Shown here: piece by piece, positions 4,382-43,771 of the stretch | Position numbering within the stretch: the stretch's first letter is position 1 | Layout of the letters: every line of letters begins with the position of its first letter | Origin: a virus | Direction: 5' to 3' (one strand) | Virus record (IMG/VR): IMGVR_UViG_3300025870_001435 | Span: 1 to 44,047 of that record | DNA length: 44,047 bases | Notes under the pieces: generated by a model | What the model was told of the DNA's origin: nothing | Database searches by the model: none | Seen by the model: the letters and a program-made list of their open reading frames with translations, nothing else | Position numbers and translations under genes: made by a program

Positions 4382-5200
4382 CTAAAGTGTATATTCGTAT
4401 TCGAATATATCTGGATCTTGCATCCAGTCCATCACCTGTTCTAAGTTATTTACAAGATTACTTTTGTGTCCTAGTGTGTATTTTATCTTTTTAAATGTTT
4501 CAACACTCTGTGTAGGGTAACCTAATAACGGCAATATTTTATCTACATCATCTTGCCAGTCTTCGTAATGTATAACAGTATCTATCTGTTTACGCTGTTT
4601 AAAGTATTCAAACAACCGATTTGTTTCTTGTAGTCCTTGTACACAAAAATCAAAATGCTGACGTTGAATATCAAATGTAGGTACATCTACAGTTTGATCC
4701 TGATAGCCAATGTGCATTATTTTAGTGTGTTTAGCTATTAGGTAACTTATTATTTGTTCTCTGATGTCTCTTCTTGCGCAAAATACAAAACTATATCCGT
4801 TTAATAGTTTAGGATCTTGAAAGTTTTGTGCAAATGTTTGTGTTTGTATTTTAAAGAAACTCTTGTCTTGGTTGTGTACATTTTGTTGTAATAGTTGTTT
4901 TCTTTTGATTACTTCGTTGTAGTATCTTTCACTGCCTATATCAAACGGCTTGGGATTGTCGTATAAAAAACTACGCTGTACTGCTCCATCAATTTGATCA
5001 TATGTTTTTACATATGTTCCCACAGGTAATGGTGGATCGTATGGTACGTTTACATCTTTGCCGTTTTCATCATACCGCATCAACACTAGTGGTATATTAG
5101 TTATTTCACCTATATATTCTTTGTGATGTGCTTGTGCTAAACATTGACCAACAACTGTACTGCCAGTACGATTATAACTGAGTATAGCAAATGTTTTCAT
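4382..5200 (-). CDS. Sulfotransferase-like P-loop protein
   Basis: A 272-residue protein with an N-terminal strand followed by SYNRTGSTVVGQ (RTGST at 11-15), the 5'-phosphosulfate-binding loop of PAPS-dependent sulfotransferases. A later strand-helix with FVFCARRDIREQIISYLIAKH corresponds to the 3'-phosphate-binding region (R..R....S). VIHYEDW is a typical later strand of the family. It would transfer sulfate to a hydroxyl or amine on a sugar or small molecule. It overlaps the upstream rSAM gene by 4 bases, so the two are probably co-translated. Acceptor unknown. Confidence 0.75.
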   Translation of the reverse strand: MKTFAILSYNRTGSTVVGQCLAQAHHKEYIGEITNIPLVLMRYDENGKDVNVPYDPPLPVGTYVKTYDQIDGAVQRSFLYDNPKPFDIGSERYYNEVIKRKQLLQQNVHNQDKSFFKIQTQTFAQNFQDPKLLNGYSFVFCARRDIREQIISYLIAKHTKIMHIGYQDQTVDVPTFDIQRQHFDFCVQGLQETNRLFEYFKQRKQIDTVIHYEDWQDDVDKILPLLGYPTQSVETFKKIKYTLGHKSNLVNNLEQVMDWMQDPDIFEYEYTL

Positions 5201-6309
5201 ATTTTTCTCTTGGGTATTTTACTGTCAGCACTACTTACACAATTATCGCTAATACAAACTCTAGGCTTATCAAACAGTTTAAATCCTGTCTCAATATTAC
5301 CTAATGGTACATCAGCACAACTATAACTACGCTTGACACTGCCATCTGGTTCACGTATAATAATGCCACTGTAACCAGCATTACAACTCCAGCCTTTAAA
5401 CTCATTAAAGTTAAAAGCATTAAAGCGTTCTGCTTGATCCATGTACCATTTCTTACCAGTACTGTCCCGAAACTCTACTTGCATATGCCAAGGCACGCTC
5501 TTGTCGTTTTCGCCTAGTGTTTCTGGCGGCAGTTCGAAACTAGGCCTTGGGCGTGCTGCCCATTTACGTTTTGTTTCAGTATACGCCATTTGCGGCATTC
5601 CGTTATACAATCGCTGTAACATCTCGTCCGTATAACCTTCCACGACTCTTGACGCCGTTGGGTCACTTTGTGGCTTGAGTGTGACGTTGATTCCTTGCTC
5701 GTGGAAGAACAAGGCATTTTCCCAATCCCTTTCGAACCATTCCGGAACCATAACCATATTGATGGTGACCTGTACATCATGCTCCTGACATAATATGAGT
5801 TTGTTTGCAAACTCCTGTAGCTTGTCAAGTGTATTTAAGTGTTCTGTGTGTAAACTAGCTGTTATACTAGCTCTATGGAAAGGTTTTACTCGTTCTACAT
5901 AGTCCTCAAACCATTTCATTGGTCGACTACAGTTTGATGTCATGTGAACGCTAGTATAGTTTGTGTTGTCTATGTCATCAGCCAGATGTTGTAGAATGTC
6001 CAGGTACCCAGGATGAAAAGTAGGCTCACCACCACTAAGAGAAAAATGAAAGCTATTAAATCCGTTTTCACGTGCTTGCCTCTTTATTTCGTCAATTGTT
6101 TTGACACATAGTTCGGTAGGACGATGGTCTTTACGGTCACTACGGGCATAAGGCCAACAGTAGGAGCATTTGTAGTTACAGAATCTTCCGAGCAGCCAGC
6201 TGACAGTGAATAGATCACGGTACAACAAAGTACGCTGACCAACACTAACAATGTCGTCAAACGGTATTTTGGTAAAGTCATAATTGCTCCATTTTAAATC
6301 TTCTGTCAT
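5197..6309 (-). CDS. Radical SAM enzyme, group B (C-terminal twitch/SPASM-like)
   Basis: A 370-residue protein. The [4Fe-4S]/SAM motif is C44-x3-C48-x2-C51 in RFCNYKCSYC, and the SAM-binding GGEP is at 93-96. After the barrel, Cys309, Cys331, Cys352 and Cys357 form C-x21-C-x20-C-x4-C, which would bind one auxiliary iron-sulfur cluster. The same spacing appears in the proteins at 8050 and 20542. Such enzymes make a 5'-deoxyadenosyl radical to modify a peptide or small molecule. It overlaps by 4 bases both the SDR-like gene before it and the sulfotransferase after it. Confidence 0.92.
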   Translation of the reverse strand: MTEDLKWSNYDFTKIPFDDIVSVGQRTLLYRDLFTVSWLLGRFCNYKCSYCWPYARSDRKDHRPTELCVKTIDEIKRQARENGFNSFHFSLSGGEPTFHPGYLDILQHLADDIDNTNYTSVHMTSNCSRPMKWFEDYVERVKPFHRASITASLHTEHLNTLDKLQEFANKLILCQEHDVQVTINMVMVPEWFERDWENALFFHEQGINVTLKPQSDPTASRVVEGYTDEMLQRLYNGMPQMAYTETKRKWAARPRPSFELPPETLGENDKSVPWHMQVEFRDSTGKKWYMDQAERFNAFNFNEFKGWSCNAGYSGIIIREPDGSVKRSYSCADVPLGNIETGFKLFDKPRVCISDNCVSSADSKIPKRKI

Positions 6310-6854
6310 ACTACTCTCTTTTGCATAGGATCCATGCTTATTTCATTTATTGTAACATGCTTAGGAAGCTCTGTCAACCACTTGATATATGAAGCTGCTT
6401 CATCTATATCCATACATACTCTGTCAGGGTGTTTCTCTTGATTATTACTCAGCGTACCAAAACTAATTAAACTTACTCTAGGGCCACTGTGCCACACTCC
6501 CACCAATGCTAAACTATTACAATAATCTCTGAGTGCTTTCTTTTCAGCATTATATAGCCATGCCGTGCCTTTGCTAGTTCTGTCTGTGGTACTGCCTATA
6601 CATACAATATGTGCGTCATTGTTGGCGGTTCTACACGCCTTGTATACTAAATCCAGTAGTACAGTTTGATGAAAGCGCCATAGTGCGCTATTAATAATAA
6701 TAGTATCATGTTGTGCGGCTAACTGCGCAAATTCGTCCATACCTTTGTTACTAGTAAGTTCATGTCCACTAGATCGACTACAATATACTGCGTCAGGATA
6801 TATCTTATGTAGACTATGTGCTAAACCTTTTTGTGGGTTACCTGTTATAATCAT
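6306..6854 (-). CDS. SDR-like NAD(P)-binding oxidoreductase (short)
   Basis: A 182-residue protein with features of short-chain dehydrogenases: an N-terminal glycine turn (TGNPQKGLAHSL, 4-15), Ser88 in CIGSTT, and the YxxxK pair Tyr101/Lys105 in LYNAEKKAL. It is shorter than the usual 240-260 residues. The protein at 10370 is a paralog with Ser88, Tyr101 and Lys105 at identical positions, and both genes directly follow a group A rSAM gene. It starts in a 4-base overlap with the rSAM gene at 6851. Likely an alcohol/ketone redox step; substrate unknown. Confidence 0.7.
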   Translation of the reverse strand: MIITGNPQKGLAHSLHKIYPDAVYCSRSSGHELTSNKGMDEFAQLAAQHDTIIINSALWRFHQTVLLDLVYKACRTANNDAHIVCIGSTTDRTSKGTAWLYNAEKKALRDYCNSLALVGVWHSGPRVSLISFGTLSNNQEKHPDRVCMDIDEAASYIKWLTELPKHVTINEISMDPMQKRVV

Positions 6855-8062
6855 AATATACTATTTAATTCTGGAAATACATCAAAGTAATCGATACCTT
6901 TGAGTAGTCCTTGCTGTGTATAAAACTGTTTAGCATTTTGTAAATTTTTTTCATTTCTGTCAATACCAATATTATTAGCTAATATATCAAACCTTCGATT
7001 CAGTATTTGTTTAAATGAGTTATCGCTAAAACTTTTATTTAATATTTCTCTTGACTTTTCTATATAATCTATGTATGATTTAGGTAATATTGTAATACTC
7101 ATGCTCTTAGGATTAGTAACAGTATTGTTACCAAACAAAAAATCTTTGCCAAGTGTGCGTTGATGACGCACTGCATAATCAGTCCAGTATTGATAATGTT
7201 GGGGCATTGTACTCACACTTAATAGATTAACACTAGCATTGATACTGCACTGTATTTGACTACGACTAGCAAATATATCCATGTTGCTTACAAACAGATC
7301 AAAGTTTAAACCTGTTCTAATGTTTTCTGCTGTATCTCCTACAGTGTCTATACTGCCTTGTATCTCTGTTTGAATATTGTGTTGCTCACTAAATTTAACA
7401 AAATTTTCTACATTCTTTTGTAGTACATTTAAGTTACTGATAACGGCAATGGTCAGCCTAGTATCAGTGTGTTCAAACACTGTAGTAATACGTAACAAAA
7501 ACTTTTCTAGTTTATTCCAATTCAATAACGGTTCACCGCCTAGCATCTGTAATCTAAATTGAGGCACTTGATTTATAATATAACGATTTAAGTAATCAAC
7601 TAAACAGTCTTCTGCTGCGCTATCCCATTCTTGATTCATTGGCTGAGGGTTATTTGTTAATTTAGCCCACAGATTACTGTGATGAGCGTCACAATACATA
7701 CAGGTCATGTTGCACACATCACTGAAAATATAATCACATATGGCTGCCGGTGTTGTGTTTATTTTTAAATTTTTAAAATTATTCACACTCCATTCAGTTG
7801 TTTGCCATTCATTTTTACTGTCTCTGTAGCTTGGATGACACATTCTACATATATTAGCTGTTTGATTCAATTTCATATCTTCTAGTGCAAGTGCAAAGTG
7901 CTGATGATTAAACACGTCAGCACCGTGTGTTCTCAAGTATTCAGCACTTAATTCAACACCTTCTTGCTTGGGACATCTTGCTATTCTTCTACGTATATGA
8001 TCCACTCTAATATTGTAGCTCATTAAACTACACAGTGTGGGTGGATTGGCTATGGTTTCCAT
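6851..8062 (-). CDS. Radical SAM enzyme, group A (divergent N-terminal twitch)
   Basis: A 403-residue protein counted from ATG 8062, which has AAGGA ten bases upstream and only a 13-base overlap with the preceding gene. A longer frame to 8146 would overlap by 97 bases. The usual PxGxVxPCC text is missing, but the four twitch cysteines remain: Cys11-x18-Cys30, then Cys72-x2-Cys75. The rSAM motif is C117-x3-C121-x2-C124, and LGGEPL follows. A Cys109 just before the core is unusual. The C-terminus ends in FDVFPELNSIL, the group A tail signature. It sits between a group B rSAM and an SDR-like gene. Confidence 0.9.
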   Translation of the reverse strand: METIANPPTLCSLMSYNIRVDHIRRRIARCPKQEGVELSAEYLRTHGADVFNHQHFALALEDMKLNQTANICRMCHPSYRDSKNEWQTTEWSVNNFKNLKINTTPAAICDYIFSDVCNMTCMYCDAHHSNLWAKLTNNPQPMNQEWDSAAEDCLVDYLNRYIINQVPQFRLQMLGGEPLLNWNKLEKFLLRITTVFEHTDTRLTIAVISNLNVLQKNVENFVKFSEQHNIQTEIQGSIDTVGDTAENIRTGLNFDLFVSNMDIFASRSQIQCSINASVNLLSVSTMPQHYQYWTDYAVRHQRTLGKDFLFGNNTVTNPKSMSITILPKSYIDYIEKSREILNKSFSDNSFKQILNRRFDILANNIGIDRNEKNLQNAKQFYTQQGLLKGIDYFDVFPELNSIL

Positions 8063-9174
8063 TCTATCATGTCCTTGACTAAATGGTAATGATCCCAATC
8101 TTTGATCTTGGGTACTTTTAAATCTGTATTGTCTGTACAACGCCATTTGCTACAACGTATAGGCTCAGTTGGCAAATCAATACTATCTTTTTCATATACG
8201 TTACCACGCTTACCACCAACATGACAACTGCCAATGTATATGTCGCCAGTGGGTGTAACTTTTAAATGTTTCATACCTGCCCAGCATATCCAGCCTTCGT
8301 AATTATTCTTTTTATCGTAGTTTAGTTCATTGTAGTGATAATCTTCTTCGTGGTATTCGCCGTTGCTGTCCTGAAACCAAAACTTTAATTTACGTTTGTC
8401 AGGGTCTGCTGTACTACGATATATTTCTTTAATAGCACCTTGTTCGTTATGTCCATAATAACTTGCTTCTTTAGATTCTATTTTTTCTACTTTTGCTTTA
8501 TCAGTAATTTGGTTAGGGTCTTTTTTATCTTTAAATTTATACTTCTCTTCTGGTTGCATACCTTTGCCTTTGTCTTTACCAGGCGGTCTGATATATCTAT
8601 GTTCTATATTAGTAATACCAGCAGCTCTGTATGCTCGATCCATACGATCTACGTTATCTAACTGTCCAGTTTCGACCATAAATCTAAGTATAAGTGTTTT
8701 CTTAGGTTCACCTTTAGCTAACTTGCTGTTTAATTCTAATCTATATTTTTCTAATTCAATAAACTTTTCTATATATTCATCTATACGATCTTCCATAAAC
8801 TCAAAGTGAAAACTTTGTGTAATACCATCTACTAGATCAAACATGTCTTTGTGATACTGTAGTGTGCGTGAACCATTTGTTGTAACACTGATATAACGTC
8901 TGCCTCTACTGCGTATATACGCACATAGATCCAAGAACTTTGGATTAATTGTTGGCTCACCACCGGTTAAACTCCACAGTACATTCGAGCCTTCTTTTTC
9001 ATAAATTACATCTACTAACTGTTTCATATTTTCCAATGGCACGTGTGGACTTGTATAATCATGTAGATAATCCACACAGTAACTACAACTAAAGTTACAA
9101 CGTTTACCTATATACCAGTCAACGCTAAATGCGCCAGTTGGGTTCCATTTAAAATAACTTGCTACGGGTTCCAA
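8050..9174 (-). CDS. Radical SAM enzyme, group B (C-terminal twitch/SPASM-like)
   Basis: A 374-residue protein. It starts at TTG 9174 with a strong AAGGAG five bases upstream; the next Met lies beyond the cluster motif, so TTG must be the start. Motif C26-x3-C30-x2-C33 (RCNFSCSYC), then GGEP at 71-74. The auxiliary-cluster cysteines are 297, 317, 341 and 346 (C-x19-C-x23-C-x4-C), with the typical G.iy.gsC strand between them. A lysine-rich linker (about 200-230) separates core and cluster domain. First gene of the minus-strand run down to 2427, probably driven by CATAAATA at 9218-9211. Confidence 0.92.
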   Translation of the reverse strand: MEPVASYFKWNPTGAFSVDWYIGKRCNFSCSYCVDYLHDYTSPHVPLENMKQLVDVIYEKEGSNVLWSLTGGEPTINPKFLDLCAYIRSRGRRYISVTTNGSRTLQYHKDMFDLVDGITQSFHFEFMEDRIDEYIEKFIELEKYRLELNSKLAKGEPKKTLILRFMVETGQLDNVDRMDRAYRAAGITNIEHRYIRPPGKDKGKGMQPEEKYKFKDKKDPNQITDKAKVEKIESKEASYYGHNEQGAIKEIYRSTADPDKRKLKFWFQDSNGEYHEEDYHYNELNYDKKNNYEGWICWAGMKHLKVTPTGDIYIGSCHVGGKRGNVYEKDSIDLPTEPIRCSKWRCTDNTDLKVPKIKDWDHYHLVKDMIEWKP

Positions 9175-9202
9175 GATTGCTCCTTTTGTAATTATATATG
9201 TA

Positions 9203-9218
9203 TATAAATATATTTATG
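9203..9218. promoter_or_regulatory. Head-to-head late promoters (NATAAATA)
   Basis: TATAAATA on the plus strand (9203-9210) directly abuts TATTTATG (9211-9218), which reads CATAAATA on the minus strand. Both match NATAAATA, the late promoter form of T4-like cyanophages. The plus-strand copy would start RNA at or beside ATG 9216; the minus-strand copy gives an RNA leader of about 30 bases with AAGGAG before TTG 9174. Confidence 0.65.
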
Positions 9219-10382
9219 GAAAATAAAACCTTTTGTTCAGTATTATGGAATCACCAGATGGTAGACGGTACCGGTAGAGTAAAGCCCTGTTGTAGATTCT
9301 TAGAAGACTATCGTCCCAAAGATCATACACTGGATAATTATAGTATCCAGGAAATATTCGACAGTGACTTTCAAAACGATCTTCGCAAGCGTATACTTGC
9401 TGGAGAAAGATTGGAAGGATGTACACGTTGCTATGAAGAAGAAGACAACAATAAAAAAAGTTTACGTATGCGTCTCAACGAACATCCAAAAGTTGGCGCT
9501 AAAACTGTTGATACTGAAAATTATAAGTTAGAATACTTGGAACTTAGCCTAAGTAACGACTGTAATCTTATGTGTAGAATGTGCGACAGTCGATATAGTT
9601 TTAAACTGTTTGATGAAGAACAAGAATATCATGGCAAAACGTTTGTTGGAAAGGCTATTGGCAGTGAACCTGGCTCTAAGATAAAACATACAAAAGCAAA
9701 TTTAGATAGTATATACCCTCATCTAAAGGATATGAAATATATTAAATTTACAGGCGGCGAGCCCCTTATTATTCCTGATCATTGGAAACTAATAGAACAT
9801 GCTGTGGAAAAGGGCTATGCTAAAAACATAAGATTAAACTATAGTACCAATTGTACAGTGTGGCCCAAGAAGAAAATTGTAGATATATGGAAAGAGTTTG
9901 ACCATATTGAACTTGCTGTTAGTTTAGATAGTATTATTAAAGAAGAAAATGAATATCAACGACACTTGACCAATCACGAAAGCGCACTGAAAAATATTGA
10001 CAAATATGTAGAAATAGCAGACACTGTTGGAATGACTGTGGTAGCAAGACCCACGGTTACAATCTATAATGCTTATCATTTGCCTGAAACACTTGAATGG
10101 TTGGATGATAGAAATATTATGTTAAACCCTACACACCTAACGTTTCCATTGTATTTGGGGTTAACAGTGTTACCACAGAGTCAAAAAGATATTATAAAAC
10201 AAAAATATCACAACTACAACTACAAAAATGAAACTATTAAAAATCTATGTGACTATATTTTAACATACATGTACAGTGAAGATAAATCCAATATCTTAGA
10301 TAAGTTTAAATCACACACTGCTTTTTGGGATAAGTCTAGATCGCAGGATTTTAAAACAGTTTATCCCTATTACACTTTTTGA
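9216..10382 (+). CDS. Radical SAM enzyme, group A (N-terminal twitch)
   Basis: A 388-residue protein counted from ATG 9216. An in-frame ATG at 9198 lies ahead of the TATAAATA and is unlikely to be used. The twitch domain shows Cys7, Cys25-Cys26 (in GRVKPCC), Cys69 and Cys72; the rSAM motif is C116-x3-C120-x2-C123, followed by FTGGEPLI. The tail reads FWDKSRSQDFKTVYPYYTF. It is the only group A gene on the plus strand and stands alone, converging on the SDR-like gene at 10370 with a 13-base overlap. The promoter is so close that the RNA may have no leader. Confidence 0.93.
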   Translation: MENKTFCSVLWNHQMVDGTGRVKPCCRFLEDYRPKDHTLDNYSIQEIFDSDFQNDLRKRILAGERLEGCTRCYEEEDNNKKSLRMRLNEHPKVGAKTVDTENYKLEYLELSLSNDCNLMCRMCDSRYSFKLFDEEQEYHGKTFVGKAIGSEPGSKIKHTKANLDSIYPHLKDMKYIKFTGGEPLIIPDHWKLIEHAVEKGYAKNIRLNYSTNCTVWPKKKIVDIWKEFDHIELAVSLDSIIKEENEYQRHLTNHESALKNIDKYVEIADTVGMTVVARPTVTIYNAYHLPETLEWLDDRNIMLNPTHLTFPLYLGLTVLPQSQKDIIKQKYHNYNYKNETIKNLCDYILTYMYSEDKSNILDKFKSHTAFWDKSRSQDFKTVYPYYTF

Positions 10383-10924
10383 ATACGATCCAAACATAGC
10401 TCACTGATATTAACATTGTGAGGTTGATCTATTAACCATTTAATTACACCAGCAACATAGTCTGTGTCTAACTTCAGAGTGTCGGGCATTTTTTCATCTT
10501 GTCTAGGAGTATGCATATTGCCCGGAGCAATGTAAGTTGTTTTGCAAGCGGGTGGAGTATCACTACTGCATGCTTGACTGAGTTGTCTCATATATGCTCG
10601 CAATGCACGTTTTTCAACAGGGTAAATCCATTGGGATCCTTTAACAGGTGTGTCTGCACTACTTCCAACGGCTATTAGATAACCTTGGTGATTATTTTTA
10701 ACCCATTCTTTTGCTATAGCTTCAGCAAGTAACACTTGACTAAAGTCACCTAATGCGCTACATAGTATTACCACGTCGTGGTCTAGTGATTTTCCACTCG
10801 CTTGCTGTCTAACATCACGCTTTCCCATGTTGTATCCACTGGATCTACTGTAGTATTCTGCATGTGGATAAAGTTTAGCAATACTTTCTGCTAATCCATA
10901 TTCTTTATTTCCTATTACAAGCAT
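10370..10924 (-). CDS. SDR-like NAD(P)-binding oxidoreductase (short, paralog of the one at 6306)
   Basis: A 184-residue protein beginning MLVIGNKEYGLAESIAKLYP, a dinucleotide-fold start. It has Ser88 in AVGSSAD and Tyr101-x3-Lys105 in IYPVEKRAL, matching the short-chain dehydrogenase catalytic set. Identity to the 6306 protein is obvious over the first 30 residues (both have G..LAxS...YP.A.Y.SRSSG). Its start overlaps the end of the group A rSAM gene at 10915 by 10 bases, repeating the rSAM-SDR order seen at 6851/6306. Function inferred as a redox step paired with that rSAM enzyme. Confidence 0.7.
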   Translation of the reverse strand: MLVIGNKEYGLAESIAKLYPHAEYYSRSSGYNMGKRDVRQQASGKSLDHDVVILCSALGDFSQVLLAEAIAKEWVKNNHQGYLIAVGSSADTPVKGSQWIYPVEKRALRAYMRQLSQACSSDTPPACKTTYIAPGNMHTPRQDEKMPDTLKLDTDYVAGVIKWLIDQPHNVNISELCLDRIQKV

Positions 10925-12093
10925 TCGTCGAACATCTCCTTTAGTATTGGCAGGCTATCATGATAGCTGTTTTTTCTTATTTTGTCAAGTCTATTTAAAT
11001 TGCTTCTAGCATTTGATAACAGTTCTAGATCTGTATCTGCACTGTAAAGATAAGTTTCTATATTTTTTAAGCCTCTTACTTTCATATGCTTTTCCATATT
11101 ACTTAATTTATTCATCGCTATCTCTTTGTATTTTTCTGGTATGTTGCTGATATTTAAATACGTCGGACCCCATAACATATTAGTAAAAGTTAAAAAATAA
11201 TTATTTCTATAGCAATATTCTAACAGTTCGTCTAGATAAAACAAACTTAGTATACTCACAGTAGGCGCTACATGAAAACGCCAACCCGGACATCGTTCAG
11301 TGAAGTACTTCATATTTTTATGAACTATATCCCAATTACTAGGGTAGCGTATATATTCTGCTCTCACTCCAACACCGTCAATGCTGGGCATCATAAGTCC
11401 ACTAGGAAAATGACTCAACAGCTCTATAAACTTGGGATTGGTTGTTTGAAAGTTACTGTTAAATTCTATTTCTACATCTTCATTGAGACCTTCGTCAATC
11501 AATCTCTGTAGTATTTTAAGTACACCTTTAACAACACTGGGTTCGCCGCCTGTAAAATATAATCTACTGGTTTTGTTCATGCAACTTAGTAGATCTTCTA
11601 TATTTTTATCACTGTAAGGATTGGTTAAGTCCCTGTGTTTGGTTAAATCATATATGTTCTTGTAGTGAAACATTGTATCATCGTAGTGCTTTTTTGTTTC
11701 ATCAAATATCATACTACTGCTTTTGGGGTTACAGGTAATACAACTTAGATTACATTTGTTACTGAGCCTCAGATCAATTAAATCATATCCAATACTTTTT
11801 AAATGTTCTAAATCAACTGTGTCACGTTTGTATTTTTCTAGATAGTTTCGAACCTCTCTGGTACGCTTACTACTACTTCCGGCAGAATCTTGTCTTTCAC
11901 AGTGATGACATCCAACATGGTACTTTCCATTTAGAAAGTCTTGTTCTATTTCTTTCCATAATTTACTGTCTTTGTATTCTGCTACGCTGCCTCTGTAGTT
12001 GTATTTCTGATCAAACACACAGCAAGGTCTTACTCCTCCACTGGGATCTGTAGCAATACCGTTGTATACCAATGGACATATTATATCATTCAT
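10915..12093 (-). CDS. Radical SAM enzyme, group A (N-terminal twitch)
   Basis: A 392-residue protein counted from ATG 12093; TTG 12102 is an alternative, and GGGGG upstream could serve either. The twitch region has Cys6 and Cys24-Cys25 in GGVRPCC, then HHC-type C-x2-C. The core motif is KCNLSCITC, followed by FTGGEPSVV, and SIDGVGVRAEYIRYPSNWD is the conserved barrel segment of the group. The tail reads RLDKIRKNSYHDSLPILKEM. It overlaps the PP-loop gene upstream by 8 bases and the SDR-like gene downstream by 10. Confidence 0.93.
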   Translation of the reverse strand: MNDIICPLVYNGIATDPSGGVRPCCVFDQKYNYRGSVAEYKDSKLWKEIEQDFLNGKYHVGCHHCERQDSAGSSSKRTREVRNYLEKYKRDTVDLEHLKSIGYDLIDLRLSNKCNLSCITCNPKSSSMIFDETKKHYDDTMFHYKNIYDLTKHRDLTNPYSDKNIEDLLSCMNKTSRLYFTGGEPSVVKGVLKILQRLIDEGLNEDVEIEFNSNFQTTNPKFIELLSHFPSGLMMPSIDGVGVRAEYIRYPSNWDIVHKNMKYFTERCPGWRFHVAPTVSILSLFYLDELLEYCYRNNYFLTFTNMLWGPTYLNISNIPEKYKEIAMNKLSNMEKHMKVRGLKNIETYLYSADTDLELLSNARSNLNRLDKIRKNSYHDSLPILKEMFDECL

Positions 12094-12742
12094 ATCTACC
12101 AAACCCCCAATATCGTTCTAAACAAAACCAACAGTCTGTTTCACAATGCTTGCTAAAGTCGTCGGTGAATACTTCGCAACTTCTTGTTAGTGGAAACAGT
12201 GTGTCCATAAGATTAAATTTTTCATACAGTTCTCTTACACCCTGTTTGTCTATGTTAATTAAAGGTAAAAACACATGCCCGCCTCGTACAGTTGGCTTAA
12301 CAGTGTCAGAATTTCTATCATCAACAGGACCATTTTGATCAAATGCTATCATTACATCACTGGGAGGATTTTTAGTAATTCCCACATAATGACAGTTTAT
12401 TTGGTTGTTGCGATATGCGCTGTCTACTACTTTTTGCTGTACCAAATCATAACTTTCACCATGATAATTTACACCAGTTGGATGTATACCAAATTTAATA
12501 CCAGGAAATGTTTCTTCCATAAAGAAAATCACTTTGGTTGCAAACTGTAGCTGATACGCCTTGCCCGCATGACAAACTGTCATTGGAATAATTTCACATT
12601 CTTTATTAGTTTCTGTGATATACTTACACAACATATAAAGTACTATTGCGCTGTCTGCTCCACCACTCAGTTTAATGCCTATTTTATTAAAGTCATCTGG
12701 CAAATTAAATTCAATTATATCCTGACTATTTTCTATTATCAT
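12086..12742 (-). CDS. PP-loop ATPase, QueC-like
   Basis: A 218-residue protein with the PP-loop SGGADS at 26-31, which binds ATP and adenylates a carboxylate or amide. The C-terminal end carries SCE...HCETDCWFCLER, a four-cysteine zinc-type site close to that of 7-cyano-7-deazaguanine synthase (QueC), where the pattern is SC...HCGxCxxCxER; here the spacing is C-x3-C-x2-C. QueC makes preQ0, and some phages use that pathway to modify DNA. No QueD or GCH gene is visible and none of the rSAM proteins has the QueE-type spacing, so a new adenylating role is equally possible. Confidence 0.75.
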   Translation of the reverse strand: MIIENSQDIIEFNLPDDFNKIGIKLSGGADSAIVLYMLCKYITETNKECEIIPMTVCHAGKAYQLQFATKVIFFMEETFPGIKFGIHPTGVNYHGESYDLVQQKVVDSAYRNNQINCHYVGITKNPPSDVMIAFDQNGPVDDRNSDTVKPTVRGGHVFLPLINIDKQGVRELYEKFNLMDTLFPLTRSCEVFTDDFSKHCETDCWFCLERYWGFGRYE

Positions 12743-13797
12743 AGATTTACTCTCTTTGTATTTTTACCATACCCACTGCTAAATTCAAATTTGTCGCCGC
12801 ATGTTCTACCACAGGTATATATTCTTTTATATTTTTCGTCTGCGTTATGCCAACTTCTATCTAAATACTTAGCAAAGAAGTCGTGTTGTAGTACGTCCCA
12901 GCCGTGTGTTCTCATATCGTTAAAATCTTGTCCGTATAAGTTATAGATATTATCAAAACTCTGACGTTGAGGATTGTGTGGTCCAAAATATGCTGGTGCT
13001 CCCATCCAAGTACATGGCCATAAACGCATATTCATATCAATAAACACACTGTTTTCTTGTTTGTATTTACACGTAATAGGAGTTTGCTCTATATACTGGT
13101 CAAAACTATCGTAAGTTTTTTTAATAGTGTTCATATCGCTTTGATTGTGATTGTCTTTTTTATCTTTTACAACACTTCCTTTACGAGTTTCGATTTGTTT
13201 TTGTTGTTGTTCTGCAAATCTTCCTGTATACTTGGCATTAAACTGTTTGAATCCCATATCTGTTGCCATTTGTTTTGCAGTTTCTATCTGATGATAGTTG
13301 TGTTCAAACTCAATAAAGTACCAACGGGCGTTGCCGCCAGCATCTATAAATGCTTGTGCGTTGGTCATTATTTTATCAAAGTTACTGTTTACTCTATATA
13401 AATGATTGGTATCAGCTAGTCCGTCTATACTAAAGTTTACAGTAATACGATCACTTTTTTGTGCCAAGTCACGCCACCAAGCAGAAGTTCTGGCACTACC
13501 ATTTACTGCCATTTTAAATTCTTTAACGCCTTGACTTATACTATAGTCAATACAATCATCTAGTGTAGGGCTACTAAGACTGTCGCCAAAGTTACCACAG
13601 TGAAATAGTTTTACACTATCACGATCAAATGGTTCCAGTATAATTTTATAGTCGTCTACAGTTGTATCAGCAATAGGCATGTGTGGATTAAGTTCAGTCT
13701 GACTGCCGTGGAATCTAGCACACTGCGGACATGCTAGATGGCACCTACTGGTGTGATCCATTTGGATTATTTTAATCTCATTCAGATTCAGAAACAA
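12739..13797 (-). CDS. Radical SAM enzyme, group C (CGNxGD motif)
   Basis: A 352-residue protein started at TTG 13797, preceded by AAAGGA at good spacing. Motif C19-x3-C23-x2-C26 (RCHLACPQC). Where the other groups have GGEP it reads CGNFGD at 67-72. The block FSIDGLADTNHLYR and the stretch AGGNARWYFIEFEHNYHQIE are shared with the three other group C proteins. The C-terminal SPASM-like region includes TCKYKQENSVFI, WPCTWMG (PCT where the paralogs have PCC) and CGRTCGD. It lies between the PP-loop gene (4-base overlap) and a group A gene. Confidence 0.92.
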   Translation of the reverse strand: MFLNLNEIKIIQMDHTSRCHLACPQCARFHGSQTELNPHMPIADTTVDDYKIILEPFDRDSVKLFHCGNFGDSLSSPTLDDCIDYSISQGVKEFKMAVNGSARTSAWWRDLAQKSDRITVNFSIDGLADTNHLYRVNSNFDKIMTNAQAFIDAGGNARWYFIEFEHNYHQIETAKQMATDMGFKQFNAKYTGRFAEQQQKQIETRKGSVVKDKKDNHNQSDMNTIKKTYDSFDQYIEQTPITCKYKQENSVFIDMNMRLWPCTWMGAPAYFGPHNPQRQSFDNIYNLYGQDFNDMRTHGWDVLQHDFFAKYLDRSWHNADEKYKRIYTCGRTCGDKFEFSSGYGKNTKRVNL

Positions 13798-15154
13798 CTT
13801 CAGTGTCCTTTAACAATTCGTACAGCTCTGGAATATATGTTTCAATACTATGATTACGTATCTTGTCTAATCTACGTGTCGCATACCAAAACTGTGGCAA
13901 GTGTTCACTGAAGTCTTTGGCGTACATATACTTTACATATTGATCCAGAAGTGCAACTGCTTCTTTTCTACTACTGGCTTTACGTTCTTCTGTAAAGTCG
14001 CTTTCATCAATTATTTTTAACAGTCGTGGTTTGTAGTCTTCATACTTTTGTTTGATATGGTCTTTTGCCCAACCTGGTAACATTCTAATATTGTAAAACT
14101 TAGGACCATGCAGTGGATGTGGTGTAATAATAGGACGCCAGTCATCGTCATTTACACGTGGTATCTTGTTTAACAATATCCATTCCATAAACTCTGGAAA
14201 GTGTAGTACATTAAACACATTGATAGTTGCCGCGATCCATACTTTGAAGTTGCCTTCAGCTTGACTTACTTTAATTAGATTTTCATATATTTTATCAAAC
14301 CTACTAGGAGGACGCATATAGTAGTTTATATCACCTACTCCGTCAATACTAGCACCAATGTTTACTTGTTTAAAATGTTTCCAGACATCCCAAGCACGTT
14401 GTGGTATATTGGTAAGGTTTGTGTTGTACTCTACAATAATGTTTTTAGCATGACCTTGATCCACACACTTTTGTAAAAATTCATAGTGTCTGTCAATCAT
14501 CAATGGCTCGCCGCCAACAATATACAGTTTACGTATCTGTTCAATGTTGTCGTCCATTTGTACCCAATAGTGATCACTGGTGTGCCAATTGTACAAGTCC
14601 TCTTCAGGCTCATACTTGCCTTTATCATTTTTAATTAATTTTACTTTACCATGACTGTCTTTGTAACTGTCTTGCCATAGTTTAACTTGATCTTCATACC
14701 ACATGCTGCTGTCAGTGGGACCGCACATACGACATTTTAAATTACACAAGTTACCAAAGCGTACATCGTAGAAGCTACAGTTGATTTCATCTGCACGTAT
14801 AGTACCATCTTGTTCAGTTTTACTCAACAAGTCTTCCCAACTAAATTCGCCACGCTCTATCCATATTTTATTTTCATATTCTATACGAGCATTCATTCCG
14901 CTTTCAACTTCAGTCTGACAACGTACACATTCTGGATGCCAACGTCCTTCCATCATATACTTGCGTATTTCTTTGCTGAGGTCGCTGTTTCGAACCATTT
15001 GTAGGTCTGCATTTCTGGCATTATATTCTTTGCCATTTTCATCTCGAAGTATACCGCCAGTAGGTCCATGCTGTGCTTGACAGCAGACTCTAATATCGCC
15101 ATTTGCTCTAAGGCTTGTACTCATCCATGGAACAGGACATAGTGTGTTATTCAT
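13778..15154 (-). CDS. Radical SAM enzyme, group A (N-terminal twitch)
   Basis: A 458-residue protein. Twitch cysteines are Cys6, Cys24-Cys25 (GDIRVCC), Cys76 and Cys79; the core motif is C137-x3-C141-x2-C144 (LCNLKCRMC), then VGGEPLM and SIDGVGDINYYMRPPSRFD. An insert of about 60 residues between the core motif and GGEP makes it longer than the 9216 protein. The tail RLDKIRNHSIETYIPELYEL is the cleanest copy of the group A C-terminal signature. First of three consecutive overlapping group A genes reaching to 17872. Confidence 0.93.
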   Translation of the reverse strand: MNNTLCPVPWMSTSLRANGDIRVCCQAQHGPTGGILRDENGKEYNARNADLQMVRNSDLSKEIRKYMMEGRWHPECVRCQTEVESGMNARIEYENKIWIERGEFSWEDLLSKTEQDGTIRADEINCSFYDVRFGNLCNLKCRMCGPTDSSMWYEDQVKLWQDSYKDSHGKVKLIKNDKGKYEPEEDLYNWHTSDHYWVQMDDNIEQIRKLYIVGGEPLMIDRHYEFLQKCVDQGHAKNIIVEYNTNLTNIPQRAWDVWKHFKQVNIGASIDGVGDINYYMRPPSRFDKIYENLIKVSQAEGNFKVWIAATINVFNVLHFPEFMEWILLNKIPRVNDDDWRPIITPHPLHGPKFYNIRMLPGWAKDHIKQKYEDYKPRLLKIIDESDFTEERKASSRKEAVALLDQYVKYMYAKDFSEHLPQFWYATRRLDKIRNHSIETYIPELYELLKDTEVVSESE

Positions 15155-17872: not shown

Positions 17873-17877
17873 ATATG

Positions 17878-30803: not shown

Positions 30804-31311
30804 CGCATTGATAATAATTGATATGTGGGACACATATCATCCTGGTCACAATAGATTTCAAAATGTATATGAACAAACTGTCAATCGTGTAGTTAATGTT
30901 GTAAAAAAATGGACCGGCCCAGTGGTGCTATCTTGCTATAACACTTATTGGAATGCTGAATATAACGATTGGGAGAAGCCCACACATAATCCATGGAGCC
31001 GACCGCATATACTATTGGAAATGGCTGTCAACTCTAAACCACTTGGATTAATCAGTTGGGATAAGCCGGAAGTCATAACACACTTAGTGAATAATCAAGT
31101 AAATGAACTATATTATGCTGGAGTAAGTTTTCCTGGATGTGTACAAGATAGAGATTTAGGCATTAATAATATGAAATATAACAGCAATGTGATAATTGAT
31201 TGTGTTATTGATTTAACCAGTACTGGTTATAACGAACACGAAATAATACACGATACATACCGATATGCATTATCACACAAACAAAGGATTGTAACCAGTG
31301 ATACCTTGTGA
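30787..31311 (+). CDS. Isochorismatase-like cysteine hydrolase
   Basis: A 174-residue protein from ATG 30787 (AGGA nine bases upstream; a TTG three codons earlier is less likely). ALIIIDMWDTYH carries the family Asp12, and GVSFPGCVQDRDLGINNM holds the candidate nucleophile Cys118 in the usual C-V/C-x context near the end of the sheet. Lys84 or Lys93 could complete the triad. Members hydrolyse amides, vinyl ethers or related bonds. The position between a sugar dehydrogenase and a glycosyltransferase-like gene suggests a role in the same unit. Substrate unknown. Confidence 0.72.
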   Translation: MATPDNALIIIDMWDTYHPGHNRFQNVYEQTVNRVVNVVKKWTGPVVLSCYNTYWNAEYNDWEKPTHNPWSRPHILLEMAVNSKPLGLISWDKPEVITHLVNNQVNELYYAGVSFPGCVQDRDLGINNMKYNSNVIIDCVIDLTSTGYNEHEIIHDTYRYALSHKQRIVTSDTL

Positions 31312-32401: not shown

Positions 32402-33208
32402 ATCGTATATACGATCTGCAATAATTTGGTTTCCAAGTTTATTGTAGTGACGGTCAGTCTCACTTATAACATATTTGGACGAGTCATTTGGATCGGGCAA
32501 AACAACTTCTGATATATCAATTGCTTTTAATCCCAATTTATGTATATAGGCTCTGATACGTTGCATATCTGCAGAGCAAACCATACTACTTTGGACAGCA
32601 TTCTCTCCCCATAAAAAAACTTTAATGTTGTTTGCTTTACTAAAGTTGGATAGAAATACAAGATTGCGTTCAAAATTATTAAGATCTGTTACTGGATTTG
32701 ATAAATGAATATAACTTCTCCAATCTTCGTTAGCCATAGCTTTGTTAATAACACTTGGAAGTAGACGCCGAGATTCTATTTTACTTTCATATACACTCTC
32801 TTTTCTCCAATTTGGATTATCGTAATTGGCTGTTAAACTATAAAAATGTTCACGCCGATTGATAGGTGGGATATTGATTACCATAATTTTGCTATTTTTT
32901 AACTCTATTCTATTATAATATTGGGTTATGACCCGTGTTATCAGATCCATACTACCACCTGGTGATCCTATATTTAATGCTAAATGATCCGACTGTAATT
33001 TATTTTGTATCATATTGGTGAACACATCGTTGTATGTCAGACCTGGTCCATATGTAAAACTGCACCCAAAAAATGGTATGATAGTTTTATTTTTCCAATC
33101 AGTGTCCAATGGGGTACGTGTTGAATCTTCAATTTGAAGAGCTTCGTCGAAGCTGTATGAAAAATTACCGGGTATCAAATGGCTAGGGACTTCTTTTTCA
33201 TTTTCCAT
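32378..33208 (-). CDS. SGNH-hydrolase-like protein
   Basis: A 276-residue protein from ATG 33208 (GTG 33223 is an alternative). It has FFGCSFTYGPGL with GCSFTYG at 48-54, a GxS block I in which Ser50 is the candidate nucleophile, then NIGSPGGSMD as block II and TDRHYNKLGNQIIADRI near the end, where His254 may complete the site. The D-x-H spacing differs from the usual DxxH, so catalysis needs care. Proteins of this shape are common in marine phages and may remove acyl groups from glycans. It overlaps the rSAM gene at 33198 by 11 bases. Confidence 0.72.
   Translation of the reverse strand: MENEKEVPSHLIPGNFSYSFDEALQIEDSTRTPLDTDWKNKTIIPFFGCSFTYGPGLTYNDVFTNMIQNKLQSDHLALNIGSPGGSMDLITRVITQYYNRIELKNSKIMVINIPPINRREHFYSLTANYDNPNWRKESVYESKIESRRLLPSVINKAMANEDWRSYIHLSNPVTDLNNFERNLVFLSNFSKANNIKVFLWGENAVQSSMVCSADMQRIRAYIHKLGLKAIDISEVVLPDPNDSSKYVISETDRHYNKLGNQIIADRIYDSIQQYLN
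32402..32415. repeat. Perfect 14-base palindrome at a convergent gene end
   Basis: ATCGTATATACGAT is its own reverse complement and lies immediately after the stop of the plus-strand gene at 31298, inside the last codons of the minus-strand SGNH gene. Having no loop and no T-run, it is not a standard terminator, but it might bind a dimeric protein or end transcription weakly. Confidence 0.3.
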
Positions 33209-34361
33209 AATATGACCCCACACTGGATGCTACACTTTTCCAAGTTGCATTTGTTTCAACACCACAGAACATGCTGCATACTCGTAGGCGTTTATTTTTT
33301 ATATTATTATCCTGCCAGGTGTCTGGCCAACGATGTTGAAATATATCGCCATCCACAATATTTTGTAATGTAGTATGGTTTAAGTCCATATTGTTTCGAC
33401 CTATATCACTAACAAACTTTCTTAGCTGATCGCTTTCGGGATTATTGGGCGCATACAATTTCCCAGCAGTCATACAACATGGAAATACTAGTCCTTCACT
33501 GCTTACAAATACTCCACGAGTAGGTATTATTTGACATTTTATTTCAGTTTGACCAAGTTTAATTTCCCAATCAGTTAAAGTGGTATCATCATATTTTTTA
33601 TTATATGCCGGACGCTTGTATCCAGTTGTGGTATCTAAGTCAGCCTTTTCGAAACTCATGATATGTGTTCCTATGTCAAACTCATCATCAGTAGGGGCTT
33701 CAATTGAATATATCTTATTGTCTTGATCATTGTATACATTAAATTGTTTAGTAACAGTGCCACTGGATGCGTCATCGTTAAACCCAAAGGCCTGTTTAGG
33801 ATAAAATTTATCAATACCCAGCGACTTGCTTAACGCCCTAGCTTCTTCAATTTGATGCTGATTATGTTTGAATACTAAAAAATGCCATTCACTGCCACCT
33901 GGACCTTTTTTATAATTCTCCATGGCCATCATAATCTTATCCCAATGTGTTCCTCGACGATATATCCAATTGGTATTTGCAAGCCCGTCAACACTAAAGG
34001 TTATGTGTCCATTAGGTCCAATTAATTCACTAAGTTCAGTCCAAAATTCTGGTGTGCGGCCACTAGCATTTGTGTTTACAGTAAACATTATGTTTGGATT
34101 TATACTTTTAGTATAACGCATAATATCCAATAACTCTGGATTGGTCATACTATCGCCATAGTTTCCACACATACTCATACTCGACAACTGACGTAAAAAT
34201 GTTTGCGGGAACCAAGCTGTAAACTGTTTAAGCGTAACATAGGTTTCAACCATATCAGTTTTTACACCGCCATTGTGCCGTCGATTACATATAGCACAAA
34301 GTGCATTGCACAAACTACTGCTCTCAAAGTCTAAATGTAATATTTGATTATAATTATACAT
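33198..34361 (-). CDS. Radical SAM enzyme, group C (CGNxGD motif)
   Basis: A 387-residue protein from ATG 34361, preceded by AAAGGA; a 12-residue longer frame to 34397 has no such site. Motif C18-x3-C22-x2-C25 (LCNALCAIC), CGNYGD at 65-70, then FSVDGLANTNWIYR and EWHFLVFKHNQHQIEEA. It is the longest group C protein, with an insert of about 60 residues (SFEKADLDTTTGYKRPAYNK region) before the SPASM-like end (IKCQIIPTRGVFV, FPCCMTAG, CSMFCGV). It follows the run of eight group A genes by a short overlap. Confidence 0.92.
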   Translation of the reverse strand: MYNYNQILHLDFESSSLCNALCAICNRRHNGGVKTDMVETYVTLKQFTAWFPQTFLRQLSSMSMCGNYGDSMTNPELLDIMRYTKSINPNIMFTVNTNASGRTPEFWTELSELIGPNGHITFSVDGLANTNWIYRRGTHWDKIMMAMENYKKGPGGSEWHFLVFKHNQHQIEEARALSKSLGIDKFYPKQAFGFNDDASSGTVTKQFNVYNDQDNKIYSIEAPTDDEFDIGTHIMSFEKADLDTTTGYKRPAYNKKYDDTTLTDWEIKLGQTEIKCQIIPTRGVFVSSEGLVFPCCMTAGKLYAPNNPESDQLRKFVSDIGRNNMDLNHTTLQNIVDGDIFQHRWPDTWQDNNIKNKRLRVCSMFCGVETNATWKSVASSVGSYYGK

Positions 34362-42216: not shown

Positions 42217-43771
42217 ATTTTTTTTCCTTTAATTTTTTACAGCGATTCCAAAACTCAGCCATTTCTGGAAATGTATCCAGAAAGTTTAAATTTCTTCGCT
42301 TGTCGTATTGAGTAAAATATTCATAAAATCGAATAAAGTTATCGTTTCTTTTCTCTTCATCAATATTTAGTCCCTCTTTGGCCCATGCTAAGTCACGTTC
42401 CATTTTAGCAACTTCATAATTTTTAAATCCAGTATACTTGCGTCCGTACTCGTCATCAGGCAAGACGTTGTCGTGCATAAAGTCGATATTTTCTTGTATA
42501 AGACTACGCATTGATTGATCAGCTAGTTGAATAGTCATCCAGTCTGGGTATCTTAAGTATGGTGTATCAAACCATATGCGCTGACGGCGCTTACGAATAA
42601 ATTTTGGATGTACAAATCCGTTTCTATCTGGCGGCTGTATCTCAATATCAGTCTGATTTTCATAACCAAATTCTTCACGCAGTTTTAATATCATATTCAA
42701 AAATCCACGTAGGTTTGGAATACTTAATAAATTAAACGTATTGATGAAAGATATTTCAGTGCCGTTAGTTTCACTTAGTACCCGTCTGCAATTGTTATAC
42801 ATTGTGTCAAAATCTAAACCATCACGCATATACTCTGCCTGATCACCAACTCCATCTACACTAACATATAAACTAAAGTGCTTGCAAGCTGGTGCTACAT
42901 ACCATTCATTACCACTGTCTGGATTAAGATTTATATGGTCTTCCCATACTCTTACTTCTTCTAGTTTACGAATTTTGTCAATGAACTTATCCATCAAACT
43001 GTTTGATGGGGGACACATATTACTAGTGATACTTAAATCTAATTGTGGATTAGGGTTATCAATGACATAATCTAATACTTTAAAAGTATTGTTGTCCATA
43101 AGAGGCTCGCCACCGGTCATGCGAAATACCTTTAGTCCACGGTATATATCTGGGAACCATTTCCAAAATGCCTCAACATATGGATTATCCTTACGTGCGA
43201 CTTCCAATGGCATTAGCCCACTACGTTTTAGATAGCTTATGTCATTGTGTCCTGTGCCATTGCTAAACCAAAATCCACCGTTCTTTTTAACATCTTCTTC
43301 CCACGCACTACTTAGGTGTGGACTGCAATAGCTACATTTTAAATTACATGCTTGGTTAAAATTTACTTCTACATAACGTGGTTTGATGTCATGATCCCAG
43401 GGATTATTAACAACTTCATCCCATGCATCTTTAACCCACCATTCGCTTGAACGGTAGTGCCGGTCACTAAGTCTACCATCTTGTGGTGGGTTTGGTGCAT
43501 CTTCTACATTCCAACAGTACTCACATCCTTTGGGCCGCTCACCATTTAGCATTTGCTTTCGCTCTTGCATTTTAAATTTTGTATTATGCAATGCATTGGG
43601 ATTAGCTTTAAGTTCATCCAATGGAATCGCATGTGTGGGAGGATGGTAACAACTATGTGTTCTTCCTTGTGGTAAGTGCAAACTTACCTGTAACCACTTT
43701 GCCATACACATTGATGGAGAAATTGCGTTTAGTTTTTCTCGTGCTTCTTTTGCACTGTTAAAGTAGTCCAA
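42206..43771 (-). CDS. Radical SAM enzyme, group A variant (SCYHPP type)
   Basis: A 521-residue protein, paralog of 40642. Twitch cysteines are Cys22, Cys41 (HSCYHPPTHAIPLDEL), Cys83 and Cys86; core C142-x3-C146-x2-C149, GGEPLM at 220-225, and SVDGVGDQAEYMRDGLDFD. An insert at about 395-420 (PPDRNGFVHPKFIRKRRQR) is very basic. Tail: YDKRRNLNFLDTFPEMAEFW, with no acidic extension. First complete gene of the minus-strand run at the right end; the gap to the partial gene upstream is only 4 bases. Confidence 0.93.
   Translation of the reverse strand: MDYFNSAKEAREKLNAISPSMCMAKWLQVSLHLPQGRTHSCYHPPTHAIPLDELKANPNALHNTKFKMQERKQMLNGERPKGCEYCWNVEDAPNPPQDGRLSDRHYRSSEWWVKDAWDEVVNNPWDHDIKPRYVEVNFNQACNLKCSYCSPHLSSAWEEDVKKNGGFWFSNGTGHNDISYLKRSGLMPLEVARKDNPYVEAFWKWFPDIYRGLKVFRMTGGEPLMDNNTFKVLDYVIDNPNPQLDLSITSNMCPPSNSLMDKFIDKIRKLEEVRVWEDHINLNPDSGNEWYVAPACKHFSLYVSVDGVGDQAEYMRDGLDFDTMYNNCRRVLSETNGTEISFINTFNLLSIPNLRGFLNMILKLREEFGYENQTDIEIQPPDRNGFVHPKFIRKRRQRIWFDTPYLRYPDWMTIQLADQSMRSLIQENIDFMHDNVLPDDEYGRKYTGFKNYEVAKMERDLAWAKEGLNIDEEKRNDNFIRFYEYFTQYDKRRNLNFLDTFPEMAEFWNRCKKLKEKKYGP

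Follow-up and report, generated by a model that had tools for sequence, protein, structure and literature searches.

Why would a marine virus carry 21 radical S-adenosylmethionine (rSAM) genes, and on what could their products act? The question is raised by IMG/VR virus record IMGVR_UViG_3300025870_001435, a stretch of 44,047 bases (36% G+C, no tRNA gene), here called the window, which encodes 43 proteins. A sequence-only reading had counted 21 rSAM proteins of four kinds and proposed a pathway that builds or diversifies a product of some sort. Our answer, a tentative one, is that the window belongs to a tail-side tailoring island of a marine T4-type phage that may decorate tail adhesins. Three features lying beyond the view of that reading, namely a fixed gene core, its tail context and its relatives in bacteria, narrow the function.

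Radical SAM genes and the identity of the window

All 21 proteins bear a CX3CX2C motif, and their genes extend from 5197-6309 to 42206-43771, as first placed. A profile search with PF04055 matches 20 of them (14 over the curated cut-off), and the one that it misses, 33198-34397, is reached by NF033640 (4.1e-9) and TIGR04317 (5.9e-9), both under their cut-offs. The motif occurs in 22 of the 43 window proteins, whereas 1,000 residue shuffles yield 0.13 such proteins on average and never more than 2; the additional bearer, 12086-12742 (CETDCWFC), is a QueC-like protein that the sequence-only reading rightly left uncounted. By motif and profile, membership of the radical SAM superfamily is confirmed for all 21, and the division into groups A (13), B (3), C (4) and D (1) holds. 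Their genes take up about 61% of the window, or 26,688 of its 44,047 bases when overlapping bases are counted for both genes. Thirty-five of the 43 genes lie on the minus strand, and 29 of the 33 same-strand neighbour pairs overlap or touch.

Group A is made up of N-terminal twitch (N-twitch) proteins: 12 of the 13 pass the 170-bit cut-off of NF033640 (N_Twi_rSAM), 6851-8146, at 137.7 bits over the length of the protein, is left outside that family, and all 13 share invariant twitch cysteines (C12, C30, C95, C98) and an invariant rSAM triad. The open reading frames (ORFs) listed as 6851-8146 and 8050-9174 share 97 bases, and the true start of the former may lie further in. Group B comprises the genes at 5197, 8050 and 20542, and group C those at 12739, 17896, 19473 and 33198, with 6-8 cysteines after the triad. 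The single group D protein, 25977-27848, is a B12-binding-type rSAM whose nearest model, the KedN5 C-methyltransferase (NF033712), gives 249.5 bits against a cut-off of 700; it also matches the PADLOC candidate-defence model PDC-M51A (7.3e-32), which perhaps reflects just a common B12-rSAM ancestry. The best window score on the viperin model NF038283 is 45 bits against a cut-off of 180, and 12086-12742 has 19.6 bits on QueC (PF06508) against 22. The labels viperin, QueC, MoaA, QueE and KedN5 were rejected, all matches lying under the family cut-offs.

Might group B indicate nucleotide-based defence or counter-defence of a viperin-like kind? PADLOC's viperin models pick up its members B5, B8 and B20 (1e-7 to 1e-13, along ~70-150 residues), as do those of NCBIfam, but the matched stretches are the common rSAM core and even the best NCBIfam score is the 45 bits just given; we regard this explanation as very improbable.

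That the window is phage-like is upheld, because a longer record continues into virion genes and because relatives join such arrays to gp23 and portal genes. Record G001 (58,963 bp) contains the whole window at 99.97% and runs 14.9 kb past its right end into virion and tail genes, encoding there proteins of 2,658, 201, 354, 404, 115, 295, 283 and 327 aa and GTa (328 aa). A search of 50,697 phage records with the 2,658-aa protein gave 60 matches, none of them covering more than 80% of it; its best matches are in jumbo phages such as PA5oct (~27% over half), some annotated as virion structural protein, and a homologue is present in each of the 12 large records tested (one being the query's own record, one a metagenome-assembled genome (MAG), and several pairs evidently one virus). 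The 354-aa protein (T354) has PHROG tail-fibre and virion matches.

Counts in 50 related records give rSAM matches in 47, with a maximum of 25 (G032), and a gp23 capsid gene in nine. On G026 (330 kb), 16 rSAM matches stand on one record with gp23 and a T4-type portal, a combination also present in G043. Records G002 and G003 have 58,278 bases in common at 99.98%; G003 has 18 rSAM matches, and gp23 is on G002. A profile search found no gp23 on the 59-kb G001. Among the records reached through the carbamoyltransferase, rSAM matches number 0 in G005, G006 and G007, 1 in G009, 2 in G010 and G013, 6 in G002, 7 in G008 and G012, 8 in G011, 16 in G004, 18 in G003 and 20 in G001. Megablast of window positions 1-22000 against the 50,697 phage records gave no match, and single-protein scans for close relatives of the rSAMs at 36844 and 33198 returned just two contigs, 99-100% identical and evidently the same virus. 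The window is best explained, on gene content, as part of a T4-type, probably jumbo, uncultured marine phage. A misassembly or a bacterial chromosome might be suspected given that related core genes exist in bacterial chromosomes, but the window stands whole in a second record that continues into virion genes, and relatives such as G026 carry array, gp23 and portal on one record; this origin, which the sequence-only reading had named as its own refutation, is extremely improbable.

The fixed core and its tail-side neighbours

What do the relatives hold in common? Loci were selected with A16, one of the N-twitch proteins, as bait (best 80 of 175 viral loci); A16 is present in 77, which reduce to 51 non-redundant loci at 95% identity, many of them cut at their ends. 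Among these 51, C19 occurs in 51, MT21 in 46, GTb in 43 and s21, sought by profile, in 39. The members present keep one order and strand, GTb-MT21-s21-C19-A16, in 45 of the 46 non-redundant loci that hold MT21, C19 and A16 (the exception is L104). No gene is inserted between s21, C19 and A16 in 11 of 37 loci, and up to 10 are inserted in the usual order (12 in L104). Around this fixed core the other rSAMs and the tailoring genes vary between relatives. The core genes in the window are as follows.

16463..17872, minus: rSAM A16 (N-twitch); NF033640 424 bits; viral relatives 62-100% (best 80 of 175), bacterial 55-59%
19473..20549, minus: rSAM C19 (group C); PF04055 28 bits, TIGR04317 1.8e-11; in 51/51 non-redundant A16 loci
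21486..21707, minus: s21, 73-aa helical protein; 39/51 non-redundant A16 loci; AF2 pLDDT 91
21694..22653, minus: MT21, methyltransferase-like by eye; 46/51 loci; no Pfam, PHROG or PDB match
23608..24315, minus: GTb, GT-A-fold glycosyltransferase-like; AF2 pLDDT 91.9, Foldseek and VIA
43776..44047, minus: GTa, C-terminal part, cut by the window end; the whole is G001:14202-15188, 328 aa

With s21 alone as bait (best 80 of at least 527 confirmed IMG/VR stretches, redundancy kept, 8 already-seen contigs dropped), MT21 lies upstream in 72 of 72 new contigs and C19 downstream in 55 of the 58 with at least 1.2 kb of flank; these contigs are not independent lineages, 33 distinct s21 proteins being found among 64 read. 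Since s21 overlaps MT21 and comes before rSAM C19 with such regularity, it is conceivable that it is the precursor peptide, modified by rSAM enzymes, of a virus-borne system resembling those for ribosomally synthesized and post-translationally modified peptides. However, s21 is conserved over its full length (mean column identity 61%) without a leader/core split, its AF2 model is compact and helical (pLDDT 91), it was not found in 12 of the 51 non-redundant loci and has no match in any of six bacterial islands fetched, and its invariance is ill-suited to variable enzymes. We consider a precursor role improbable, on a test that covered s21 alone, ORFs under 50 aa being unsurveyed for other precursors. 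Foldseek gave no PDB or BFVD match for s21 at E<=0.001, but for a helical protein of this size that is no proof of a novel fold; its profile also matched designed proteins and antibody chains, which we take to be chance similarity.

GTb is modelled with a GT-A fold, and sugar transfer is predicted for it. Its AF2 model (pLDDT 91.9) retrieves glycosyltransferases with Foldseek from the PDB (8.8e-5, TM ~0.4), and VIA gives Z 11.2 with 136 of 235 residues aligned at an rmsd of 2.7 A; the peptide S-glycosyltransferases SunS and ThuS are among the structure matches. Nucleotidyltransferases of related fold score just ~1 below, and the fold therefore leaves the function unfixed. Profiles compared with solved structures are not decisive: that of group A finds SkfB (1.6e-12), cytosylglucuronate decarboxylase and BtrN chains over partial length, that of A16 SkfB alone (0.018), that of C19 NifB alone (0.0026), and those of GTb and MT21 nothing.

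GTa is homologous to GTb (30% identity, 8e-26), and five of the 16 long ORFs inspected (L040, L042, L045, L064, L083) fuse a GTa-like domain, GTb and, behind them, MT21 in one frame, which ties these domains to one pathway. Three further GTb homologues of 969-1,688 aa (L050:4374-7574, L076:3202-6111 and L027:10139-15205) look by eye like tandem degenerate copies of a ~110-aa glycosyltransferase core before one intact domain.

How is the core connected with the virion genes? In all 21 stretches that extend as far as T404 or S115, whichever genes of T404-S115-GT295-GT283-GTa are present stand in that one order; one of these stretches is bacterial, and the other 20, which include near copies, are viral. 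GT295 and GT283, GT-A-like in appearance by eye and weakly similar to each other (22%, 1e-5), sit between the tail genes and GTa. Two stretches (L043, L044) begin at S115; in five (L041, L042, L045, L046, L064) GT295 is the best-matching profile for each gene of the GT pair; and a separate GTa is absent in L083 and L101, a GTa-like domain lying inside the fused ORF in L042, L045, L064 and L083. The region starts at the giant 2,658-aa virion protein and tail-fibre-like genes, and the window is its biosynthetic part. As judged from gene order, the core is joined to the tail genes by a conserved glycosyltransferase-like block.

Origin of the array and its bacterial relatives

Have the rSAM genes multiplied recently within this phage? 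The best in-window paralogue is 21-33% identical for all 21, and 12 label changes are required to place the 13 N-twitch proteins on an 87-row tree, 9 of them forced by starred branches; recent tandem amplification is rejected on these two results. Shuffled labels need a mean of 12.4 changes and 236 of 500 shuffles are as low, a random-like scatter; with 20 open forks and long branches in the tree, single placements are unsure. Eleven of the 21 have a viral orthologue of 70-92%, the other ten reaching at most 61% among the loci examined. The 11 rSAMs with an orthologue of at least 70% are under purifying selection (dN/dS 0.021-0.100, dS ~1 to 2.6). From identities and tree together, the array appears to be a collection of old, separate and swappable lineages and not of recent duplicates. 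Its members outside the core are:

5197..6309, minus: B5 (group B), variable in phages; PF04055 9.9e-18; 90% viral relative, 65% bacterial island
6851..8146, minus: group A, divergent N-twitch; NF033640 137.7 bits (cut-off 170), PF04055 28.9 bits
8050..9174, minus: B8 (group B); PF04055 8.7e-15; 92% viral relative
9198..10382, plus: A9 (N-twitch); NF033640 312.5 bits; relatives 85% viral, 46% bacterial
10915..12102, minus: group A; NF033640 299 bits
12739..13797, minus: C12 (group C); PF04055 19.5 bits, TIGR04317 3.7e-8; 50% bacterial relative
13778..15154, minus: A13 (N-twitch); NF033640 370 bits
15147..16466, minus: A15 (N-twitch); NF033640 274 bits
17896..18906, minus: C17 (group C); PF04055 31.5 bits, TIGR04317 6.7e-16
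20542..21489, minus: B20 (group B); PF04055 3.1e-11
25977..27848, plus: group D, B12-binding, C-methyltransferase-like; PF04055 2.3e-16; PF02310 1.2e-5, below cut-off; NF033712 249.5/700 bits
33198..34397, minus: group C; NF033640 4.1e-9 and TIGR04317 5.9e-9, below cut-offs; no PF04055
34354..35550, minus: group A; NF033640 350 bits
35544..36857, minus: group A; NF033640 326 bits
36844..38079, minus: group A; NF033640 339 bits
38069..39298, minus: group A; NF033640 421 bits
39264..40652, minus: group A; NF033640 331 bits
40642..42216, minus: group A; NF033640 316 bits
42206..43771, minus: group A; NF033640 316.5 bits

Part of the core also exists in bacteria. A search with C19 found seven loci in MAGs, at least one of them a phage contig binned with bacteria. 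Contig C3 of G052 (L155), with array and gp23 on one contig, looks like such a binned phage, and in G051 (L154) a published MAG holds an rSAM array with core, its gp23 being on C10, apparently another contig. Orthologues of A16 occur in one bacterial order, in 6 of 129 genomes at E<1e-220 and in 10 of 129 at 1e-60. The largest island, G057 C34, carries many rSAM genes and related core genes between tuf-like and rpoB/rpoC-like genes (by eye), and the whole G057 genome has 50 PF04055 matches (island loci L182-L185). Across six bacterial islands, A16 is a direct neighbour of B5 in four and of C19 in three, and a GTa, GTb or MT21 homologue is nearby in all six; the surroundings of A16 analysed in G061 and G112 do not include C19. 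On the tree, A16 of viruses and A16 of bacteria fall into separate clades, both supported, and the split therefore looks old.

One island alone, G112 C21, resembles the phage arrangement: pheT-like and other housekeeping genes (by eye) are followed by A16, GTb and B5, and then by a T404-like gene with the glycosyltransferase block, in a single instance close to a contig end. Profile searches detected neither gp23 nor a T4 portal in G112, and no second T404-like gene turned up in the 126 genomes searched from its order.

The acceptor and the place among known systems

On what might the enzymes act? Predicted membrane proteins, by a simple hydropathy rule, number 0 of 43 in the window and 33 of 1,201 ORFs in viral loci, and this scarcity makes a soluble acceptor likely. 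The most economical candidates would be the tail adhesins at the head of the same gene run. We envision that the enzymes act in the cytosol of the infected cell, where the GT-A-type transferases (GTa, GTb and their neighbours) would place a sugar on the tail-adhesin proteins encoded next door. C19 and A16, with s21 as a small partner, would make a common C-H modification, and the variable rSAMs, together with carbamoyl-, methyl- and other enzymes, would add lineage-specific decorations. With decorations of that kind, phages would therefore differ in host-recognising surface chemistry and not in sequence alone. A bolder version, which we think doubtful, is a combinatorial system in which the fixed rSAM, glycosyltransferase and methyltransferase core lays a common handle on the tail adhesins and up to ~20 shuffled rSAM and other enzymes diversify it, varying the host-binding surface.

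The remaining genes of the window are:

131..736, plus: GDSL/SGNH hydrolase-like, accessory; PF00657 9.7e-6, over cut-off
719..1705, minus: unlabelled, GT-B-like look by eye only; no family match
1737..2435, plus: unlabelled, acetyltransferase-like by eye only; no family match
2427..3131, minus: alpha/beta hydrolase-like; phrog_789 1.1e-8; PF00561 below cut-off
3132..3656, minus: Asp/Asn beta-hydroxylase-like, accessory; PF05118 5.2e-7, over cut-off
3653..4372, minus: unlabelled, nitroreductase-like by eye only; no family match
4382..5200, minus: unlabelled, sulfotransferase-like by eye only; no family match
6306..6854, minus: homologue of 10370-10924 (34%, 6e-38), short-chain-dehydrogenase-like at best; no family match of its own
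10370..10924, minus: short-chain-dehydrogenase-like; PF00106 0.0039, below cut-off
12086..12742, minus: QueC-like, ATP-pyrophosphatase type, its CxxxCxxC not rSAM; PF06508 7.2e-4 and TIGR02432 (TilS) 7.4e-4, both below cut-off
18894..19463, minus: unlabelled, 2OG-oxygenase-like by eye only; no family match
22653..23654, minus: MT22, MT21 paralogue; 34% to MT21, 48-53% in some relatives
24424..25935, minus: NodU-type carbamoyltransferase; PF16861 4.1e-51, PF02543 3.5e-38; phrog_1601
27823..28479, plus: methyltransferase-like; PF03602 4.5e-6, over cut-off
29511..30803, plus: nucleotide-sugar dehydrogenase; PF03721 1.5e-17, PF00984 6.5e-17; TIGR03026 156.9 bits against cut-off 189.8
30778..31311, plus: isochorismatase-like; PF00857 2.9e-4, below cut-off
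32378..33223, minus: unlabelled, SGNH-hydrolase-like by eye only; no family match

The carbamoyl-, methyl- and glycosyltransferase-like genes that the sequence-only reading saw among the rSAM genes are thus present, whereas its sulfotransferase, at 4382, is one in appearance only.

Alternatively, the island may remodel the host surface: an unusual nucleotide sugar or glycan would be handed to host machinery and end in lipopolysaccharide or exopolysaccharide, with superinfection exclusion as a result. This is the main rival, and though unlikely in our estimation it draws on several observations that weigh against decoration of the tail. Five of the six bacterial islands hold core genes without a T404 match (the match being in G112 C21), and a tail adhesin is therefore unnecessary in some settings. 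Bacterial stretches, flanks included, carry predicted membrane ORFs in 19 of 74 (G057), 9 of 31 (G086) and 9 of 34 (G061), with lower counts of 3 of 29 (G088), 2 of 13 (G087) and 1 of 25 (G112 C21); the many membrane proteins of the first three and the lack of T404 in five islands fit a surface glycan. The nucleotide-sugar dehydrogenase and the carbamoyltransferase of the window are of kinds usual in surface glycans, and glycosyltransferases of the same kind of phage region are read as acting on the host surface in the part of Zaragoza-Solas 2020 drawn on here (PMC7029224). Adjacency to tail genes is no proof of substrate, and the acceptor is something that we infer. No telling profile or structure match stands behind the name transferase for GT295, GT283 and MT21, the A16 loci were picked with A16 itself as bait, and selection is less clear for the other ten rSAMs, whose dN/dS comes from distant homologues in five (0.24-0.59) and meets saturated dS in five, dS being near saturation generally. 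Against the host surface as target, however, stand the lack of predicted membrane proteins in the window, where profile searches found no flippase, polymerase, ligase or initiating transferase family, and the glycosyltransferase block, whose neighbours are tail genes wherever a phage stretch extends to it and also in one bacterial island.

Is such an array new? The sequence-only reading had called it undescribed, which does not hold for the kind as such: multi-rSAM phages with 11-12 genes are already in print. Campylobacter phages CP220 and CPt10 are described as having 11 and 12 rSAM proteins, with an 'interchangeable module' that holds five (Timms 2010, PMC2853527), and our recount of CP220 gives 11 PF04055 matches. 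In that phage a cluster sits close to a possible baseplate lysozyme gene, with an amidinotransferase-like gene and two nucleotide-diphospho-sugar-transferase-like genes; for these phages, however, tblastn with A16 gave no match, and the likeness of C19 is 24% over 76% of the query. G026:74850-75890 (in L135) resembles by eye the glycine amidinotransferase annotated in the CP220 module. The 183-kb T4-like marine phage TARA_ERS488813_N000010 has 12 rSAM genes (Nishimura 2017, PMC5332604); compared by description only, it differs in that its rSAMs are presented as Fe-S genes, without core, tail link or pathway in the passages concerned.

These papers point to auxiliary metabolism of the infected cell, of an Fe-S or low-oxygen kind, which is proposed for CP220 and CPt10 (PMC2853527) and in keeping with the grouping of rSAMs with phage Fe-S assembly genes (PMC5332604), as far as the cited sections go. 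Yet no equivalog cut-off of the MoaA, QueE, NrdG2 or NirJ type is reached among the best 25 NCBIfam matches listed, and a metabolic role leaves the fixed order with glycosyltransferase-like and tail genes unexplained; we take it to be quite improbable.

A close likeness in setting is the host-recognition cluster (HRC) of pelagimyophages and cyanomyophages, described as a large variable island by VrlC with tail fibres, glycosyltransferases and rSAM cassettes, two pelagimyophage HRCs differing by such cassettes (Zaragoza-Solas 2020, PMC7029224). The present region likewise joins tail-fibre genes (PHROG match) to variable content round a fixed core. The pelagimyophage HRC is bounded, according to the same text, by VrlC and the neck gene gp14; here the one side compared is formed by the giant virion protein and tail genes, the giant protein being matched to jumbo-phage virion proteins. 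Cultured Pelagibacter phage Mosig EXVC030M has annotated MoaA-like, carbamoyltransferase, methyltransferase, nitroreductase and Asp/Arg hydroxylase genes between VrlC and tail fibres, but 2 PF04055 matches against 20 in the window, and C19 and MT21 reach it at just 23-25% over 48-60% of the query. Vibrio phages K566 and K567 (255 kb) have clustered annotated rSAMs and are the best phage-record match to two window N-twitch proteins; they differ in identity (22-23%), in having fewer rSAMs (6 PF04055 matches in K566) and in a core match limited to A16-type rSAMs. The description of NF033640 states no reaction, and that family leaves groups B, C and D and the core unexplained.

Among the 50,697 phage records, s21 (E up to 0.01) and GTa and GT295 (1e-5) have no match, and C19 and A16 reach 23-25% identity at most, one A16 match being a single-cell marine virus. 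A single-cell-amplified Pacific sequence (L272, MH319727.1, 7,955 bp; AG-345-D19) has a carbamoyltransferase 42% identical to the window's, followed by a partial A16-like rSAM at 25%. Tasman Sea phage contigs are reported, in the portion cited, to be enriched in rSAM and glycosyltransferase genes (PMC7150976). The gene class has been in print since 2010, with no tested function in the pages referred to (PMC2853527). A search of the open-licence PubMed Central literature found no description of the fixed core, its tail-block link or a bacterial counterpart. New here are the fixed core and its connection to the tail block, the swappable old-lineage rSAMs and the occurrence of part of the core in bacterial chromosomes.

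We know of no phage virion maturation by radical SAM chemistry. If the combinatorial system is real, it would to our knowledge be the first case of virion proteins matured by rSAM enzymes, and bacterial chromosomes would hold an old counterpart of it. Should the acceptor be the tail, host range and phage competition would rest on enzymes as well as on fibre sequence; should it be a host glycan, the island would be a large, unread set of sugar-tailoring enzymes. Under either acceptor, the core supplies named, testable proteins: C19, A16, s21, GTb and MT21.

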